This document shows positions 1 to 8,211 of a DNA stretch of 64,000 nt, one piece after another. How positions within the stretch are numbered: the stretch's first letter is position 1; each line of letters opens with the position of its first letter. The DNA comes from Tenacibaculum sp. SG-28 (GTDB lineage: Bacteria > Bacteroidota > Bacteroidia > Flavobacteriales > Flavobacteriaceae): contig NZ_MQVY01000003.1 of assembly GCF_002954385.1 (NCBI RefSeq), forward strand, positions 83,420 to 147,419. Reading direction: 5' to 3'. The notes under the pieces are model-generated. The model made no database searches. It saw nothing but the letters and a program-made list of their open reading frames with translations, and was not told the DNA's origin. The position numbers were made by a program, and so were the translations under genes.

Positions 1-16
1 TTATATAGCTAAGTTA

Positions 17-45
17 CAAGGAATATATACAATACCAATTAACAA
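17..45 (-). promoter_or_regulatory. Promoter of a small-RNA unit lying off the left edge
   Basis: On the minus strand the conserved TTTGTTAA (TTG complement at 43-45) lies upstream of TATTCCTTG (complement of 17-25). This is the same arrangement as in the units inside the window, with the -7-like element slightly diverged. Its transcript would end left of base 1. Confidence 0.45.
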
Positions 46-181
46 AAGTTTATCTGAAGTCCCATTTGGAATACTTTTTTGCTACTTAGGAAAAATCAAA
101 ATATTTTTAAAGCACTAGCAAAATAAAACAAGTAAAAAGGATACTCCATCTTAAAGTAATTACCAAAACAGATAGTATAAT

Positions 182-261
182 AAAAAATAAACTCGCATGT
201 AGTATTGCGAGTTTACCTTTAAGGGGAAGACTTATGGGGGATTGTTGTCTTATATATCTAA
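182..261 (-). ncRNA. Predicted small RNA, copy A
   Basis: The minus strand shows TTG (complement of 292-294), 17 bases, then TATTCTTA (complement of 267-274), close to the flavobacterial promoter TTG-N17-20-TAnnTTTG. The predicted transcript starts near 261. It contains a hairpin closed by AGAC/GTCT (228-250) whose loop includes ATCCCCCAT, then CTTCCCCTTAAAGG, and ends in a 9-bp stem AAACTCGCA/TGCGAGTTT (189-214) followed by ATTTTTTATT, which looks like an intrinsic terminator. The ends are estimates from the motifs. No homologous RNA family is recognised by eye. Confidence 0.6.
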
Positions 262-433
262 GTTACTAAGAATACAGAGAACACTAATTAACAAAGGTTT
301 ATCTGAAGATTCATTTGGAATACTTTTTTGCTATTTAGGAAAAAACCACATATTATTAAGGTGATAGCGAAATAAAACTAGTAAAAAAGGTTCGTCTTTA
401 TTAAAGTAATCACCATAACATATATAGGTATAA

Positions 434-516
434 TAAAAAATAAACTCGCATGTAGTATTGCGAGTTTACCTTTAAGGGGAAGACTTACGGGGGGATTGTT
501 GTCTTATAAATTTAAA
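434..516 (-). ncRNA. Predicted small RNA, copy B
   Basis: The promoter-like elements on the minus strand are TTG (complement of 547-549), 17 bases, and TATTTTCG (complement of 522-529), one mismatch from TAnnTTTG. The body is nearly identical to copy A, with a C-rich loop between AGAC and GTCT (481-504), CTTCCCCTTAAAGG, and the terminator-like stem 442-467 followed by ATTTTTTATT. The upstream conserved block (292-345 in the next unit to the left) matches in other copies, so whole units rather than only the RNA appear to have been duplicated. Confidence 0.6.
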
Positions 517-592
517 GATACCGAAAATAAATACTAGTTCCATTAACAAAGGTTTATAGGGATTCCAATATGCTTTCAAAAACAGCCCTGGT

Positions 593-672
593 AAAAAAAC
601 AAACTCGTAACGAGCGTTACGAGTTTTGTATAAGAGGAAGACTTACGGGGGGTATTGTCTTATACGTTAAAA
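593..672 (-). ncRNA. Predicted small RNA, copy C (diverged)
   Basis: This is the most diverged copy. Its terminator stem is a different 12-bp perfect inverted repeat (AAACTCGTAACG at 601-612 and CGTTACGAGTTT at 615-626). The pairing is kept although the bases differ from the other copies, and GTTTTTTT follows on the minus strand. The C-rich loop between AGAC and GTCT (639-660) is kept, as is CTTCCTCTT. The -33-like TTG (complement of 702-704) is present, but the -7 region reads TATTGTTTG with a one-base longer core and shorter spacing, so this promoter is less certain. Confidence 0.5.
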
Positions 673-841
673 ATACTTCAAACAATAAAGCCATAACTAA
701 ACAAAGGTTTACTTGAGCCTTTATTTGGAATACTTTTTAGCTATTTGGGAAAAAACAACATTTTTTAAAGCACTAGCAAAATGAAACCATAAAAAAAAGG
801 ACACTTCATCATAAAGTAATAACCAAAACAGATCGTATACC

Positions 842-921
842 AAATAAATAAACTCGCATGTAGTGTTGCGAGTTTACCTTAAAGGAGAAGACATATGGGA
901 GATATTGTCTAGTATATATGA
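842..921 (-). ncRNA. Predicted small RNA, copy D
   Basis: The best promoter match in the array lies upstream on the minus strand: TTG (complement of 952-954), 17 bases, TATTCTTG (complement of 927-934). The RNA has a hairpin AGACaATAT-CTCCC-ATATGTCT (889-910) exposing CTCCC, then TCTCCTTTAAGG, then the terminator-like stem 850-875 with a T-rich tail. TCTCCTTT resembles the anti-Shine-Dalgarno tail of 16S rRNA (CCUCCUUU). Beyond this copy, 965-1158 holds no further repeat and no gene that I can support. Confidence 0.6.
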
Positions 922-1158
922 GTTACCAAGAATACAAGAAATACCGATTAACAAAAGTTTATAAAATGTAAAACGTAGAACAATACTAAAATCTAAAACC
1001 ATATAAATGACTGTGATTTTCTGTGATAGGTTTTGATAAAATATCAAGAAAGTATTTTAATTAAAGAAACGATACACTCTTCAAATAAATAAAACAATAA
1101 TTATATTATCTAAGCAATGAATAAAAATCCATAATTTAGCATTCTAAATTTCAATTTC

Positions 1159-1893
1159 TTGAGATATTTTATTGAATTTTCATATAACGGAAAAAATTAT
1201 CATGGTTGGCAAATACAACCGAATGCCATTACCATTCAGGAAAAAATCAACAGTGGAATATCCACTATTTTACAAAAAGAGGTTTCCGTTGTAGGCGCAG
1301 GGAGAACAGATACCGGAGTTCATGCCATACAAATGTTTGCCCATTTTGATATTCCAAATGCATTACCCAAAGACTTTTGTTATAAGTTAAATGCAATTTT
1401 ACCAAATGATATTGTAATTCGGGATGTATTCTTAGTTTCTGATGAAGCCCATGCTCGTTTTGACGCAACCAGTAGAAGTTATGAGTATCGAATCTGGCTT
1501 GGAAGAAATCCATTTATGTTAGATACAACCTGGCAAATTCAGTATAAAAATATTAATTTCCACATGATGAATGAAGCGGCAAAAATACTGTATGAATACA
1601 AAGATTTCCAATGCTTTTCAAAAGTAAAAACAGACGTACATACCTTTATATGCTCTGTGAAAAAGGCAGAGTGGAAACTTGACCAAGACTCTCTTATTTT
1701 TTATATTACAGCAGACCGATTTTTAAGAAATATGGTTAGAGCCATTGTAGGTACCTTATTAGATGTTGGTCTAGGAAAAATTAGCTTGGTGAAATTTAGA
1801 GAAATAATAGAAAGTAAAAATAGAAGCAATGCTGGAGCTTCGGTACCTGCGAAAGGTTTATTTTTAACAAACGTAGCATATACATATTTATAG
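1159..1893 (+). CDS. truA: tRNA pseudouridine(38-40) synthase TruA
   Basis: This 244-residue protein isomerises uridines 38-40 of the tRNA anticodon stem to pseudouridine. The family core GRTDTGVHA is at residues 48-56, with the catalytic aspartate at 51. The N-terminus MRYFIEFSYNGKNYHGWQ is typical of the family and dictates the TTG start at 1159, because no in-frame ATG gives a family-length protein. The C-terminal DRFLRNMVRAIVGTL segment is also typical. The stop codon overlaps the GTG of the next gene by one base, so the two are probably cotranscribed. No clear promoter is visible in the AT-rich 965-1158 stretch. Confidence 0.95.
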   Translation: MRYFIEFSYNGKNYHGWQIQPNAITIQEKINSGISTILQKEVSVVGAGRTDTGVHAIQMFAHFDIPNALPKDFCYKLNAILPNDIVIRDVFLVSDEAHARFDATSRSYEYRIWLGRNPFMLDTTWQIQYKNINFHMMNEAAKILYEYKDFQCFSKVKTDVHTFICSVKKAEWKLDQDSLIFYITADRFLRNMVRAIVGTLLDVGLGKISLVKFREIIESKNRSNAGASVPAKGLFLTNVAYTYL

Positions 1894-3656
1894 TGAGTAC
1901 AAAATCAGGAAAAGCATTTGACATAAAAATTTTTTCAAGACTAATGAGTTTTGCAAAAAAGTATAGACTAAAGTTTGGGATAGCTATAGTTTCAACAATT
2001 TTGTTAGCAATTACTGCAGCAGCAGACCCGTACATATTAATTTATACCATAGATAATTTTACAGAAACTAAAAGTCTAAACAATCTTTTTAATAATATTA
2101 TACTACTTTTTGTGGTATTACTTGCACAAGTTCTACTACAATTTTTATTTATTTATTATGCAAACTGGGTTGGTCAGCACATCATTAAGGATTTAAGAGC
2201 AAAAACATTTCGAAAAATACTAGATTTCAAAATGGGGTATTTCGATAACAATTCTGTTGGTAAACTAGTAACAAGAGTTGTTTCTGATATTGAAACTATT
2301 GCTGCTTTTTTTACGCAGGGTGTTTTTATGATTGTTAGTGATATTTTAAAAATGCTTATTGTTACTGTTTTAATGTTCGTCATTAATTGGAAGTTGGCAT
2401 TAATTGCATTAGCTGTTTTACCGATTTTAATCTATGCAACGAAACTTTTTCAAATTGCCATTAAAGCAACATTTCAAGATGTAAGAAATCAAGTAGCGAA
2501 CCTCAATGGTTTTATTCAGGAAAGAGTTACAGGTATGAAAATCGTACAACTTTTTAACCGTGAAAAAATTGAATATGAGAATTTTATTAGCATCAACGAC
2601 AAACATAAAAAAGCACATATTAAAACTGTTTGGTACTACTCGATATTTTTTCCAATTGCTGAAATATTGTCCTCTATTGCTATTGGATTAATTGTTTGGT
2701 TTGGTGGTCTTATGGTCGTGGAAGGCAACAGTATTGAATTGGCTACTATTATCGGTTTTATAAAAATGGCACAAATGCTTTTTCGTCCTCTTCGACAGAT
2801 TGCCGATAAATTTAACCAACTACAAATGGGTATTGTTTCTGGTGAAAGAGTTTTTGCAATAATTGATACAGAAAGTTCCATAACTAAGCATGGTAATAAG
2901 GAAGCAGATACTATAAAAGGAAAAATTTCTTTTGAAGATGTTCATTTTAGCTACATCAAGGGAGACGAAGTATTGAAAGGAATTAACTTTTCCGTAGAAA
3001 AAGGAGAAACTGTTGCTATCGTTGGCGCAACCGGAGCAGGAAAGTCAACGATTATCAATCTAATTAGTAGATTCTACGAAATTGATAGTGGTACTATTAC
3101 GGTAGACGATGTTGAAGTATCTGAGTATAATGTCAATTCGCTTCGAAAAAAAGTAGCAATAGTACTGCAAGATGTCTTTCTATTTTCAGACAGTATCTTA
3201 AATAATATTACTTTAAACAATACTGATATTACTGAGGAGGAAGTAAAAAAAGCTGCCCAACAAATCGGAATTCACGACTTTATAATGACACTTCCTAATG
3301 GATATGATTATAATGTTAAAGAAAGAGGTGCTATGCTCTCCTCTGGGCAAAGACAATTAATTGCCTTTTTAAGAGCCTATGTTAGTAAACCGAGTATTCT
3401 TATTTTAGACGAGGCCACCTCTTCTGTAGATTCGCATGCCGAGCAAATGATTCAGTATGCAACAGACCAAATAACTAAAGATAGAACTTCCATTATTATT
3501 GCGCATAGACTTGCTACAATTCAAAAAGCGGATACCATTATTGTTATGGACAAGGGTACTATCGTTGAAAAAGGAAGTCATAAAGAATTACTTAAAAAAG
3601 AAAACGGATTCTACAAGAATCTTCATGACAAACAATTCAGCAAGGAAATTGTATGA
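1893..3656 (+). CDS. ABC exporter, MsbA/MdlB-like (fused TM and ATPase domains)
   Basis: A 587-residue half-transporter. The N-terminal part has about six hydrophobic segments (ABC_membrane fold). The ATPase has Walker A GATGAGKST near 378-386, signature LSSGQRQ near 481, Walker B ILILDEATS near 501 and the switch histidine in IIIAHRLAT. Such proteins homodimerise in the inner membrane and export lipids, drugs or peptides. The substrate cannot be told from sequence. The start is GTG at 1893, overlapping the truA stop by one base, which implies translational coupling. Confidence 0.92.
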   Translation: MSTKSGKAFDIKIFSRLMSFAKKYRLKFGIAIVSTILLAITAAADPYILIYTIDNFTETKSLNNLFNNIILLFVVLLAQVLLQFLFIYYANWVGQHIIKDLRAKTFRKILDFKMGYFDNNSVGKLVTRVVSDIETIAAFFTQGVFMIVSDILKMLIVTVLMFVINWKLALIALAVLPILIYATKLFQIAIKATFQDVRNQVANLNGFIQERVTGMKIVQLFNREKIEYENFISINDKHKKAHIKTVWYYSIFFPIAEILSSIAIGLIVWFGGLMVVEGNSIELATIIGFIKMAQMLFRPLRQIADKFNQLQMGIVSGERVFAIIDTESSITKHGNKEADTIKGKISFEDVHFSYIKGDEVLKGINFSVEKGETVAIVGATGAGKSTIINLISRFYEIDSGTITVDDVEVSEYNVNSLRKKVAIVLQDVFLFSDSILNNITLNNTDITEEEVKKAAQQIGIHDFIMTLPNGYDYNVKERGAMLSSGQRQLIAFLRAYVSKPSILILDEATSSVDSHAEQMIQYATDQITKDRTSIIIAHRLATIQKADTIIVMDKGTIVEKGSHKELLKKENGFYKNLHDKQFSKEIV

Positions 3657-3662
3657 TAAAAT

Positions 3663-3692
3663 TTGTTAATATCTGCCAAAGTATTACATTTG
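3663..3692 (+). promoter_or_regulatory. Flavobacterial promoter TTG-N19-TACATTTG
   Basis: TTG at 3663-3665, a 19-base spacer and TACATTTG at 3685-3692 match the Bacteroidota consensus TTG...TAnnTTTG. It lies about 30 bases upstream of the lipoprotein ATG at 3722 and just after the ABC exporter stop, so the lipoprotein gene has its own promoter. Confidence 0.7.
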
Positions 3693-3721
3693 TTTTTATT
3701 AACTATTAATTTTTGAAAAAC

Positions 3722-4155
3722 ATGAAAAACTAGTTTTATCTTTAGTGGTAGCTAGCTCTTTATTAGCAACTTCTTGTAAAAATGCAAAAGAAGAAACAAA
3801 AGAAGCCGTTGAAACAGTAAAAGAAGTAACTACTGATGCTGCTGAAGCTACAAGTGAGGCCGTTAAAGAAGCTGCTGATAAAACAGCTGAGGCTGTAGAA
3901 TCTGCCATAGAAGGCATTACGATTCCAAGTTTTGACAACGAAGAAGTGGATACATATTTAAAAGAGTACTCAGCATACGCTAGTGATTATATCGAAGCAA
4001 AAGGAGATGTTGTAAAAAATACTGATCTTGCTAAAAAAGGTGTAGAATTATCTAAAAAAGGAAGCGAAATTGTTAAGAATTTAGATGAGGAAACTGCTAA
4101 AAAATTCAATCAAGTAATGAGTGAAATTCAAGCAAAAATGGCACCTGCCAAATAA
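3722..4155 (+). CDS. Small lipoprotein, alanine/glutamate-rich (apparent frameshift at start)
   Basis: The open frame begins only at a GTG (3745) in the middle of a signal peptide. An ATG at 3722 followed by AAAAA (3725-3729) is out of frame by one base. One more A gives MKKLVLSLVVASSLLATSC, a classic lipoprotein signal with lipobox LATSC. The mature part is a long helical stretch rich in Ala, Glu, Lys and Thr (VKEAADKTAEAVES-like repeats), then a small domain ending QAKMAPAK. Corrected length is 144 residues. The function is unknown; it is probably a periplasm-facing lipoprotein. It is monocistronic, with a promoter upstream and a terminator downstream. Confidence 0.75.
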
Positions 4156-4176
4156 TTTTCACAAAAAAATTTTACA

Positions 4177-4204
4177 AAGAGTCTCTCCTTAGAGACTCTT
4201 TTTT
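4177..4204. terminator. Bidirectional intrinsic terminator
   Basis: A perfect 10-bp stem AAGAGTCTCT/AGAGACTCTT (4177-4186 and 4191-4200) with a CCTT loop is followed by T6 on the plus strand and a T-containing tail on the minus strand. It separates the convergent lipoprotein and dacA genes and ends both. Confidence 0.85.
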
Positions 4205-4985
4205 ATGCCATTGTATCTTCTTGAACCCTTTTCAGCAGGGCATCGGTAGATTCATACAAAACAAAACCGCCATCTTTGATATACGAAATCTCTCCGGTTT
4301 CCTCAGAGACACATAAACAAATAGCATCCGTCTTTTCAGTAACTCCAATTGCAGCGCGATGTCGTAACCCAAATCTTGAGGGAATCTGTGTATTATCGGA
4401 AATAGGTAAAATAACACGAGTGGCAATAATGTAATTATCGCGAATAATAGTTGCTCCGTCGTGCAAAGGGCTATTTTTATAAAATATACTTTGAATTATT
4501 GCCTGATTTAATAAAGCGTTCATGGCATCTCCCGTATTTACTAAAAAATCTAAGTTATTTGTTCTCTCAATGACAATTAATGCTCCTGTTTTGGTTTTAG
4601 ATAATTGCAAGCAAGAATTAATGATTGTTTCCGTATCCATTTCCGAAGTTATTTCAGATTTCAAAAATTTCAACTGGTTTAAAAAGCCGCTACGTGCAGA
4701 AAAATTAGTAGTCCCTATCATTAACAAGAACTTTCTTATTTCTTGCTGAAATACAATTATTAAGGCAATGACACCTCCGGAAAGTAAATATCCTAAAATC
4801 CCACTTAACATCTCCATATGCAATGCTTGTGTGATTTTCCAAATGATAAATATAAATGCAATTCCAATAAAAATATTGATGGCAACAGTTCCTTTTAACA
4901 ACTTATAAATGTAGTATAGCAAGGCAGCTACAAGTATAATATCCAATACATCAAGAAAAGAAAAATCAATAAAACTAAAATCCAT
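4203..4985 (-). CDS. dacA: Diadenylate cyclase, CdaA/DacA type
   Basis: A 260-residue membrane enzyme that makes c-di-AMP from two ATP. The N-terminal 90 residues contain about three transmembrane segments. The DisA_N catalytic domain follows, with DGA at 176-178 (in SPLHDGATI) and RHR at 208-210 (in GLRHRAAIG), both hallmark active-site motifs. It is the last gene of a minus-strand group (LOG protein, folP, small ORF, dacA). I see no CdaR-like regulator next to it, unlike in Firmicutes. Confidence 0.93.
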   Translation of the reverse strand: MDFSFIDFSFLDVLDIILVAALLYYIYKLLKGTVAINIFIGIAFIFIIWKITQALHMEMLSGILGYLLSGGVIALIIVFQQEIRKFLLMIGTTNFSARSGFLNQLKFLKSEITSEMDTETIINSCLQLSKTKTGALIVIERTNNLDFLVNTGDAMNALLNQAIIQSIFYKNSPLHDGATIIRDNYIIATRVILPISDNTQIPSRFGLRHRAAIGVTEKTDAICLCVSEETGEISYIKDGGFVLYESTDALLKRVQEDTMA

Positions 4986-6640: not shown

Positions 6641-7185
6641 ATGGAAAATACCTCAACGCAATACGATTCTGTCATTCATACTTGTAGAAGTTATTCGTTA
6701 AAAAAATGTCAGATTACGGAAGTGCATGGCGAATTTTACGATTGCCGTCGCTAACCGATCAGATTTTTATTAAAGCACAACGAATTAGGCAATTACAAGA
6801 AAATGAAGTACGAAAGGTAAATGAAGGAGAAAAGTCTGAATTTATTGGTATTATCAACTATGCAATAATGGCCCTAATTCAATTAGAGCTGGGCGTCGTA
6901 GAACAACCAGATCTTTCCACCGAGGAAGCTACAACTTTCTACGACAAACACATTAGTACAACCAAAGAATTAATGGAAAACAAAAATCACGATTATGGTG
7001 AAGCATGGAGAGAAATGCGGGTTTCATCTCTTACAGACTTAATTTTACAAAAACTATTGCGGGTTAAACAAATTGAAGACAACCAAGGAAAAACGATCGT
7101 TTCTGAAGGCATAGATGCAAATTACCAAGATATGATTAATTATGCGGTATTTGCACTTATACATCATCAAGAATCTACCCATTAA
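6641..7185 (+). CDS. DUF1599 protein (apparent frameshift near 6691)
   Basis: The uninterrupted frame begins at ATG 6706 (MSDYGSAWRILRLPSL), but the family has about 22 further residues before this. They are encoded from ATG 6641 (MENTSTQYDSVIHTCRS) in another frame. Adding one T to TT at 6691-6692 joins the parts as ...CRSLFVKKMSDYG, the expected family sequence, giving 181 residues. The protein contains two similar halves: DYGSAWRILRLPSLTD (from residue 25 of the corrected protein) and DYGEAWREMRVSSLTD. The function is unknown. It sits directly upstream of the DoxX gene, a common pairing in this phylum. Confidence 0.8.
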
Positions 7186-7209
7186 TTAATTCTAAAACAC
7201 CCCTTTTTT

Positions 7210-8211
7210 ATGTTTTTAAAAAATGTAACGCATATTTCAAGACTACTAGTTGGCTTATTATTTATTTATTCTGGTTTTGTAAAACTGATAGACCCCATTG
7301 GTTCGCAGTATAAATTTGAGGAATATTTCAACGAAGATGTGCTTAACTTAGAGTTTTTAATTCCGTTCGCTTTACCCTTTTCTGTGCTGTTAATTGTCGT
7401 AGAGTTAGCACTGGGGGTTATGCTTCTTGTGGGATACAAACCAAAATTAACCGTTTGGAGTTTATTTGGGCTCAATACTATTTTTCTTTTCCTAACCTGG
7501 TATTCGTATACCTACAATAAAGTGACCGATTGTGGATGCTTCGGAGATGCAATTAAACTAACTCCGGGAGAAACCTTCTACAAAAATATCGTTTTCATGA
7601 TATTCATTGTTGTTCTAATTCTTGGTCTCAAATATATAAAACCGATATTCTCTGTAAAATTCGCAAGTATTGCAACCTATGGTTCTGTATTTATTTCCTT
7701 AGGAATAGTGTATTATGTTTTAACCCATTTACCAATTATTGATTTTAGAGCTTATGCCGTTGGAACCAATATCGCTGAGGGTATGGAGTACCAAGAAAAC
7801 AGCGATGAAGCACCTCCTATTCACGATTTTGAAATTGGAACGGTAGACGGAGATAAATTGGAGGAAATGTTACAAAAAGAAAAAGCACTTTTGGTTTTCA
7901 TGACTACAATAAATAAAGCTAGCAAAGAGGGTTTACATGCGGTATCTAAAATTGCTAGTACTGCAAAAAATAAAGGATATAGCATCTATGTTTTAACCTC
8001 CGATATCATGATGGCTGATGTAATTTACGAGCAAAATTTTGAAGCGTTAAACAAATTCAAAAAAGAGTATAATTTACCGTATACCTTCGGAAGTTGTGAT
8101 GAAAAGGCTATAAAAACTGCCATTCGTGCCAACCCAGGAGTAATGACAGTTCATAAAGGTGTTATTTCGGGTAAATGGAATTGGACAGACGCAGAGGATG
8201 TGAGCCTTTAA
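7210..8211 (+). CDS. DoxX/MauE-like redox-associated membrane protein (BT_3928 family)
   Basis: 333 residues. The N-terminal half has four hydrophobic segments with VGLLFIYSGFVKLIDP at the start and a conserved DCGCFGD motif (CxC type), as in DoxX/MauE proteins. The C-terminal half, after about residue 200, is a periplasmic thioredoxin-fold-like domain without an obvious CxxC (it has FGSCDE). The family is thought to act in redox or thiol handling at the membrane; the exact role is unknown. It follows DUF1599 by 24 bases and precedes crcB by 20, so the genes probably form an operon. Confidence 0.82.
   Translation: MFLKNVTHISRLLVGLLFIYSGFVKLIDPIGSQYKFEEYFNEDVLNLEFLIPFALPFSVLLIVVELALGVMLLVGYKPKLTVWSLFGLNTIFLFLTWYSYTYNKVTDCGCFGDAIKLTPGETFYKNIVFMIFIVVLILGLKYIKPIFSVKFASIATYGSVFISLGIVYYVLTHLPIIDFRAYAVGTNIAEGMEYQENSDEAPPIHDFEIGTVDGDKLEEMLQKEKALLVFMTTINKASKEGLHAVSKIASTAKNKGYSIYVLTSDIMMADVIYEQNFEALNKFKKEYNLPYTFGSCDEKAIKTAIRANPGVMTVHKGVISGKWNWTDAEDVSL

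Follow-up and report, generated by a model that had tools for sequence, protein, structure and literature searches.

Predicted C-rich small RNA genes in tandem beside truA of Tenacibaculum sp. SG-28 and predicted complementary G-rich RNAs upstream of glpK

Described small RNA systems and the locus beside truA

The RoxS/RosA pair of Bacillus subtilis and the RsaE/RsaI pair of Staphylococcus aureus are single-copy systems. In each of them a C-rich small RNA is accompanied by a stand-alone, complementary G-rich small RNA that is under different transcriptional control; both pairs belong to the Firmicutes and are described in PMC8216469 as acting on the ribosome binding sites of mRNAs. Shine-Dalgarno sites, the targets of C-rich RNAs in Firmicutes, are reported to be absent in Flavobacteriia, where small RNA regulation is little charted. 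As far as was searched, C-rich/G-rich pairing has been described for a few Gram-positive bacteria and no description was found for the Bacteroidota group. No report of the C-rich or G-rich RNAs presented below was found in open-access PMC papers.

The C-rich RNAs are predicted from a tandem array on the minus strand at positions 1-963 of the window, i.e. the stretch of 64,000 nucleotides of Tenacibaculum sp. SG-28 that was analysed, and the G-rich RNAs from a second array upstream of glpK. RoxS/RosA, RsaE/RsaI and LhrC are the closest working analogues, and the CcsR RNAs are less close. As in RoxS/RosA, unpaired C motifs are predicted in the C-rich RNA, here in all four complete RNAs of the window (unpaired probability of the C-runs 0.89-1.0 in the predicted fold), and a separate G-rich small RNA with a complementary unpaired motif is indicated by sequence and predicted fold. 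The Tenacibaculum case differs in that both partners are tandem and multicopy, in that it is found in Bacteroidota and in that the pairing is predicted. Moreover, G-rich ribosome-binding-site targets were not recovered, GGGG enrichment being absent before the starts of 724 predicted ORFs.

The LhrC1-5 RNAs of Listeria are present in five nearly identical copies, including the lhrC1-4 locus, and in this they resemble the array, but they are 111-114 nt long, are controlled by the LisRK two-component system and bind the Shine-Dalgarno region, as described in PMC4132741. The window units, too, are copies that resemble one another and repeat C-rich motifs. Rfam includes an LhrC model, and LhrC was absent among the 8 hits up to E 10 obtained with Rfam 15 for window positions 1-1200, all of which were far below gathering scores and were treated as chance. 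Fifteen related loci gave no match to Rfam 15 at gathering. The CcsR/cuckoo RNAs of alphaproteobacteria have C-rich loops and CCUCCUCCC anti-Shine-Dalgarno loops. Loops of the latter type were not found in the window RNAs, in which the C-run loops read CCCCC or CCCCCC, or CUCCC in unit 5. The initial annotation had cited CcsR/cuckoo as an example of tandem multicopy small RNAs, and both sets consist of several adjacent small RNAs; however, according to PMC10253847, RNase E releases the CcsR/cuckoo RNAs from a single transcript that they share with a DUF1127 gene, and they are not the closest analogue. No such cotranscription was found for the array, the neighbours of which are truA and a YfcE-like gene and each unit of which has its own predicted terminator.

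Within the Bacteroidota, the FopS RNAs of Bacteroides thetaiotaomicron also form a multicopy paralogous family, but its 14 members are intergenic, antisense or 3'UTR-derived, their seed represses susC mRNAs, and no G-rich partner family figures in the part of PMC11697453 that describes them. Rfp18 of Flavobacterium psychrophilum, compared here by its description only, is a conserved small RNA of the Flavobacteriaceae. It differs in being one RNA, for which pairing of the third stem-loop with protease mRNAs is predicted, and the passages on Rfp18 in PMC9723704 mention neither an array nor a C-rich motif.

Organization of the array

The array comprises four complete units plus a promoter that belongs to a fifth. 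On the right it is flanked by truA (1159-1893, plus strand; tRNA pseudouridine synthase TruA, TIGR00071), a neighbour that is conserved in relatives, and on the left, beyond the window edge, by the YfcE-like phosphoesterase gene. The sequence left of the window reads N, and the copy number is given as at least four units plus one promoter. On the minus strand a 14-nt box is separated by 22 nt from a -7 element, after which a unit contains, in this order, a small stem close to a C-run, a second C-rich stretch, a terminator and a T tail. The box resembles the palindrome TTAACATATGTTAA that usually precedes the units of relatives, 22 nt before TAnnTTTG.

In unit 5 the box is TAAACTTTTGTTAA (948-961, 11/14 to the palindrome) and the predicted -7 element is TAACTCAT (918-925), a weak match to TAnnTTTG that was placed by the N22 spacing from the box. 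The predicted C-rich RNA of about 72 nt (842-913), the start of which was inferred from the -7 box and which has syntenic units in relatives, contains a terminator hairpin of 13 pairs (846-879). Unit 4 has the box TAAACCTTTGTTTA (698-711, 10/14), the predicted -7 element TATTTTTA (668-675), a predicted RNA of about 71 nt (593-663) with CCCCCC at 647-652 and a hairpin at 601-626. For unit 3 these elements are TAAACCTTTGTTAA (543-556, 11/14), TATCTTTA (513-520) and a predicted RNA of about 75 nt (434-508) with a CCCCCC loop at 489-494, UUCCCCUUAAA around 476-479 and a hairpin with T tail at 434-467, the stem of which has 9/9 pairs. Unit 2 shares the box TAAACCTTTGTTAA (288-301, 11/14), which is followed by the predicted -7 element TAACTTAG (258-265) and a predicted RNA of about 73 nt (181-253) with a CCCCC loop at 236-240, UUCCCCUUAAA around 223-226 and a hairpin with T tail at 181-214. 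Unit 1 is represented by the box TAAACTTTTGTTAA (39-52, 11/14) and the predicted -7 element TAACTTAG (9-16), from which its RNA would leave the window leftward. All of these features are on the minus strand. The starts predicted from the -7 elements lie at about 913, 663, 508, 253 and 4 for units 5 to 1. An RNA length of about 80 nt, as annotated initially, was thereby corrected to about 72 nt, and the promoter of unit 1 was placed at 9-52.

The small stem is AAGAC/GUCUU in units 2 and 3, and units 4 and 5 are predicted to fold somewhat differently. The second C-rich stretch is an intact UUCCCCUUAAA in units 2 and 3 and is degenerate in units 4 and 5. On the minus strand the terminator scan gave three sites, one of them nested in another, versus 0.5 expected in shuffles, and these cover units 4 and 5. 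The hairpins of units 2 and 3 were missed by this simple scan and are visible in sequence and fold.

A repeat of about 250 bases had been noted for this region. The repetition was confirmed, but a constant period was not, the unit spacing being about 250, 155 and 250 nt. Over the RNA part, units 2 and 3 are 98% identical in the best 66 nt, and all RNA parts from -7 box to tail show 69-93% pairwise identity. The three comparable spacers are 73-81% identical, with 83% over 138 nt in the nearest spacer pair. Accordingly, only in units 2 and 3 does conservation of the RNA clearly exceed that of the spacers, which are themselves repeated. Tandem Repeats Finder reported no array, probably because the copies are too diverged. 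Reading frames within the RNAs are short and none is common to all units. When the genome itself was searched with the R1 model, 7 matches were obtained at E<=1: the four window units scored 94-108 bits and the remaining three had E above 0.09. The units are therefore not fragments of a dispersed repeat, a case that the initial annotation had named as a refutation.

Units and promoters in relatives

Related loci were collected by means of TruA. Among the best 80 of 194 named loci, in which the highest TruA identity was 74% (a Tenacibaculum), a phosphoesterase gene adjoins truA in 78. A script that required a -7 box, CCCC and a hairpin with T tail found a unit in 11 of these 78 loci, ten from Tenacibaculum and one from a Flavobacteriaceae MAG (L085). 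One more unit (L046) was seen by eye, having been missed by the script owing to its -7 box. A unit is therefore present in the gap between truA and the phosphoesterase gene at 11 of the 17 Tenacibaculum-titled loci (L046 and ten found by script), the six without being L039, L060, L068, L081, L083 and L084. No unit was found in any Polaribacter-titled locus among the best 80 of 194. The Tenacibaculum-titled gaps hold one or two copies (two in T. holothuriorum, L041), and in genomes one copy was counted in G003, one in G144 and four in G002. Of the terminator stems, 14 with 12 distinct arm pairs were selected by eye, and all of them keep their pairs although the sequence differs; the C-runs also change sequence among relatives. 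Genus-wide, the R1 model matched 133 of 166 genomes at E<=1. However, matches that scored under about 40 bits, several of which were reported on both strands, resemble AT-rich terminators arising by chance, and only the matches of G000, G144, G003 and G002 were used.

Synteny, variation in copy number, promoter spacing and terminator stems that keep their pairing all support the initial reading of the array as tandem small RNA genes. With each gene having its own predicted promoter and terminator, this is the best reading of the sequence.

The promoter pattern TTAACNTANGTTAA-N20..24-TANNTTTG gave 76 matches in 49 of 166 genus genomes, versus 2 when the pattern was reversed. The five boxes of the window, with 11, 10, 11, 11 and 11 of 14 matches, all stand at exactly N22 from the -7 element. 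The chance per 14-mer is 1.5e-4 for at least 11 matches and 1.2e-3 for at least 10; as the window boxes are paralogous copies, they amount to about one independent observation, with a chance near 1.5e-4. A recognisable box was not present at the truA units of G003 (L004), G144 (L010) and L085. In F. psychrophilum the -7 box lies at -12 to -5 (PMC9723704). With the same placement, and hence with inferred start sites, the palindrome is centred near -41.5, both in relatives (exact N22 spacing in 67 of the 76 matches) and at the window boxes (10-11 of 14). This is presumably the position of a class II activator, and TTAACATATGTTAA equals the PrfA box, a site of the Crp/Fnr family.

The promoters annotated earlier were retained in part. 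Their -7 element was reassigned; by reading of the sequence, the -7 box of the initial annotation fits TAnnTTTG better than the reassigned one in unit 5, equally in unit 3 and worse in the remaining three, so that the start is uncertain by 8 nt. A scan for sigma-70 promoters gave 3 promoter-like sites versus 7.4 in shuffles, a low number that is to be expected of TAnnTTTG promoters. The strict box-promoter scan of 864 kb of the SG-28 genome yielded no N22 match. It gave three weak matches at N21, and no C-rich RNA follows any of them; owing to their -7 boxes, the promoters of the window are not captured by this strict scan.

What follows the box promoters was determined for 32 of them that have 120 nt downstream (loci L119-L148, duplicates and shorter ones dropped). 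CCCC occurred within 120 nt in 30 of these 32, versus 23 of 179 other TAnnTTTG sites of the same loci (Fisher p ~1e-19), and CCCC together with a hairpin in 27 of 32 versus 17 of 179 (Fisher p ~1e-17). The RNAs concerned fall into several classes, and the promoters are sometimes tandem (four in G047; pairs in G060, G075, G077 and G168). Outside the genus, the box promoter had 19 matches in 15 of 397 family genomes versus 2 in the control, two of the 19 being in the genus member G020. Few of the matches from this search that were inspected have CCCC (L151, L160, L163 and the genus member L165).

The G-rich family and its complementarity to the C-rich RNAs

The SG-28 genome contains 38 sites of TTAAGGGG, versus 59 control sites. 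Thirty of them were inspected, and in no case did an ORF of at least 60 aa start within the following 60 nt. Two sites, 406 nt apart, precede terminators upstream of glpK, which points to a second predicted small RNA family that is tandem and carries a GGGG motif. The two G-rich RNAs predicted there occupy C2 561059-561152 and 561476-561561. In a unit of this family a TAYATTTG-like -7 box is followed by a 5' hairpin, by UUUAAGGGGAAA and by a ACCTTCTAGA-type terminator. From genus loci 42 such units were collected, often in tandem at a spacing of about 180-520 nt, and they share a near-invariant core. A model built from 26 of the 42 matched 56 of 166 genus genomes at E<=1e-3 and 30 of 166 at 1.2e-6 or better, with up to 9 matches per genome and 2 in SG-28. 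Among 397 family genomes, three of which are genus members, G358 alone outside the genus matched at E<=1e-4. AAGGGG lies between the 5' hairpin and the terminator and is unpaired with probability 0.86-0.98 in 7 of 8 predicted folds, one sequence being counted twice; in one of the SG-28 units the motif is predicted to fold into a stem (0.27 unpaired). The DNA element upstream of the G-rich RNAs is GCGGAAATCCCCTTTT-like and differs from the box of the C-rich RNAs, which suggests that the two families are probably controlled differently.

The G-rich RNA sequence UUUAAGGGGAA is the perfect complement, over 11 nt, of UUCCCCUUAAA in units 2 and 3. A search of the SG-28 assembly with TTTAAGGGGAA gave 4 sites, versus 2 for the reversed control. 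Two of the 4 belong to the G array, and the others are the antisense strand of window units 2 and 3. UUUAAGGGGAA has no further site in this assembly; the 11-mer was picked with the match already known. At least 8 contiguous nucleotides complementary to the G motif were present in 19 of 25 C-rich RNAs from 14 genomes, versus 2.6 expected from dinucleotide shuffles. When all C-rich RNAs of a genome were shuffled 200 times, a longest match as good was reached in none of the shuffles for G055, G065 and G084, in 1 for G049, in 2 for G000 and in 4 for G086. In these six genomes the complementarity runs for 11-13 nt, past the C-run into its flanks. It is weak in five of the 11 genomes, the numbers for the others being 14 (G075), 15 (G042), 32 (G003), 73 (G002) and 77 (G144) of 200. 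As for duplex energy, calculated with accessibility ignored, none of 200 shuffles was as good in G000, G003 and G002, where the best of 8, 16 and 12 pairs, respectively, was set against shuffles of one pair. In G055, 7/200 were as good with the C-rich RNA shuffled and 1/200 with the G-rich RNA shuffled, and in the other seven genomes 16-121/200 and 9-112/200, respectively.

G-rich RNAs and box promoters tend to occur in the same genomes, an association that is confounded by ancestry. At the strict cut 23 of 166 genomes have both, 7 the G-rich RNA only, 26 the box only and 110 neither (Fisher p 3e-9, ancestry ignored); at E<=1e-3 the numbers are 31 with both, 25 with the G-rich RNA only and 18 with the box only (p 5e-7, ancestry ignored). 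G000 and G144, both counted as G-rich only at the strict cut, carry truA-type C-rich RNAs with promoters outside the strict pattern. Many box-only genomes carry other RNA classes.

Proposed circuit, alternatives and candidate regulator

We propose, with a probability of roughly 0.5, that the C-rich RNAs of the array are under Crp/Fnr-type control and titrate the G-rich RNAs of the array upstream of glpK. Each unit would be transcribed leftward from its own promoter into a C-rich RNA of about 72 nt, and a Crp/Fnr-type regulator bound to the box at the class II position of about -41.5 would switch these promoters on. The perfect 11-nt match with units 2 and 3 may then seed a duplex between C-rich and G-rich RNA, which could inactivate or destabilise both. 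Promoter input together with gene copy number would set the ratio of the two pools and thereby decide which RNA is set free to act. Judged by sequence, this would be a two-sided titration circuit between small RNAs in Bacteroidota that resembles RoxS/RosA and is multicopy on both sides. More tentatively, at somewhat short of even odds, Tenacibaculum and its relatives would thus possess a reciprocal, independently controlled and tandemly amplified RNA switch in which copy number sets the threshold; as far as was searched, Bacteroidota would thereby gain their first C-rich/G-rich sponge circuit, and no such circuit with an array for each partner would have been described before. If this is true, a multiple origin of the C-rich/G-rich sponge design would be suggested, along with the possibility of tuning it through array copy number. 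Further outcomes of the analysis are a promoter code, a single candidate regulator in the SG-28 genome and, for the two RNA families, an exactly specified predicted pairing site. The 724 ORFs predicted in 864 kb, which is 31% of the SG-28 genome, show no enrichment of CCCC or GGGG around their starts, and this start-region test found no mRNA targets for either motif.

In one alternative, the G-rich RNAs might be the regulators of mRNAs and the C-rich RNAs their Crp/Fnr-controlled decoys, a direction opposite to that of RoxS/RosA. The near-invariant core common to the G-rich units would fit such a role, as would the CCCC just before some starts, e.g. of a short ORF in L172 and of the BT_3928-family gene at window position 7210, but with CCCC not enriched before starts overall this arrangement seems rather unlikely. 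Alternatively, the C-rich RNAs could pair directly with G-rich ribosome binding sites, in the mode of LhrC and RsaE, and the G-rich RNAs would be sponges at most. Unpaired C-runs, often several per RNA, are found as in LhrC (PMC4132741), and GGGG partners exist as predicted small RNAs, comparable to RosA for RoxS (PMC8216469). However, the mRNAs of F. psychrophilum are stated in PMC9723704 to be without Shine-Dalgarno sequences, GGGG is not enriched before the starts in the 864 kb, and the 11-nt complement UUUAAGGGGAA has no further site in the SG-28 assembly; direct action on mRNAs is considered unlikely.

A protein could also be the target: like CsrB, which titrates CsrA, the RNAs might sequester an RNA-binding protein by means of their repeated CCCC, in which case their complementarity to the G-rich RNAs would be secondary. 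Indeed, the motifs recur in loops and linkers and genomes hold several copies; in some relatives a single RNA has as many as four or five C-runs. In addition, a Bacteroidota RNA-binding protein that binds a multicopy small RNA family has been described, namely RbpB with FopS (PMC11697453). Binding of CCCC would nevertheless leave the 11-13-nt match into the C-run flanks in six genomes unexplained, and this possibility appears decidedly improbable. Lastly, the small RNA genes are predicted ones and the spacers are repeated too, so the repeats might be untranscribed DNA, or terminators of the neighbouring genes amplified by slippage. Given that promoter spacing, C-motifs and pairing stems are conserved in single-copy relatives without any repeat, such an explanation is very unlikely.

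For titration under Crp/Fnr-type control, a candidate regulator is at hand. The SG-28 genome (93% complete) encodes one HTH_Crp_2 protein, of 211 aa with a cNMP-binding and a Crp-like HTH domain (L167:1051-1686). It is the only candidate named and most likely the regulator of the C-rich RNA box promoters, as far as its domains and distribution suggest. It has matches at E<=1e-3 in 144 of 166 genus genomes (121 of 128 high-quality ones), 20 of which have only distant Crp-type proteins; by count, a close homolog (at least 54% identity, E<=1e-70) is present in 124 of 166. Close homologs were found in 44 of 49 box genomes versus 80 of 117 others (Fisher p 0.003, ancestry and completeness ignored), so that 80 genomes have one without a strict box and five box genomes (G076, G099, G124, G152 and G160) are without one. 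The recognition helix is near-invariant in the 30 best matches, the SG-28 protein included. Many genomes carry several Crp-type proteins.

Further predicted transcripts behind box promoters

The box/N22 promoter, in which a palindrome that is a candidate Crp/Fnr-type site (the box) lies 22 nt before a TAnnTTTG-like -7 element, was found ahead of a different predicted RNA in loci of other Flavobacteriaceae. In about half of those read (approximately 9 of 18) it is followed by a AATAGCTAACTAAC-like sequence and a terminator, near position 1501 in L150, L152, L153, L156-L159 and L162, and near 897 in L161. CCCC is missing from most of these AATAGCTAACTAAC-like RNAs, which possibly represent a second box-controlled small RNA family.

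Another predicted RNA class, with AGTA(G/T)ATAGAAG and a single CCCC, is located downstream of box promoters within the genus (L136, L140 and L148, near 1501), where it carries a similar distal element, AACTTAAC..TTCTATAAG..TACAATTAACA. At the genus loci L120, L122, L138, L142, L143 and L145 (near 1501) the box promoter precedes UUUCCCC and then a AAGGCUUAUU-type terminator, with an ORF immediately downstream. The product of this ORF looks like a small membrane protein, and the UUUCCCC/AAGGCUUAUU-type element could be either a separate sRNA or the leader of the ORF.

Surroundings of the predicted small RNA arrays

Signal-transduction genes are present near both tandem arrays: a response regulator (L189, 93-767) upstream of the glpK array of predicted G-rich RNAs (G-RNAs), and a TPR histidine kinase with a LuxR-type regulator (both in L002, the pair covering 1112-1798 and 2905-4686) to the left of the truA array of predicted C-rich RNAs. 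Many G-rich units (L229-L246) have a pair of direct repeats, one CGGAAAnnnACA-like and the other GCGGATATCCCC-like, ahead of the -7 box; a different regulator may bind there.

Possible G-RNA targets

The ATG of a BT_3928-family gene (start at window position 7210) is immediately preceded by ACACCCCTTTTTT (window 7170-7212), and this gene is a possible target of the G-RNAs. A short ORF in L172 (around 1500) has AAATCCCCTTAAAATG at its start; reading of the sequence revealed that one of the genome's own G-rich RNAs has an 11-nt complement to this region, extending into the start codon.
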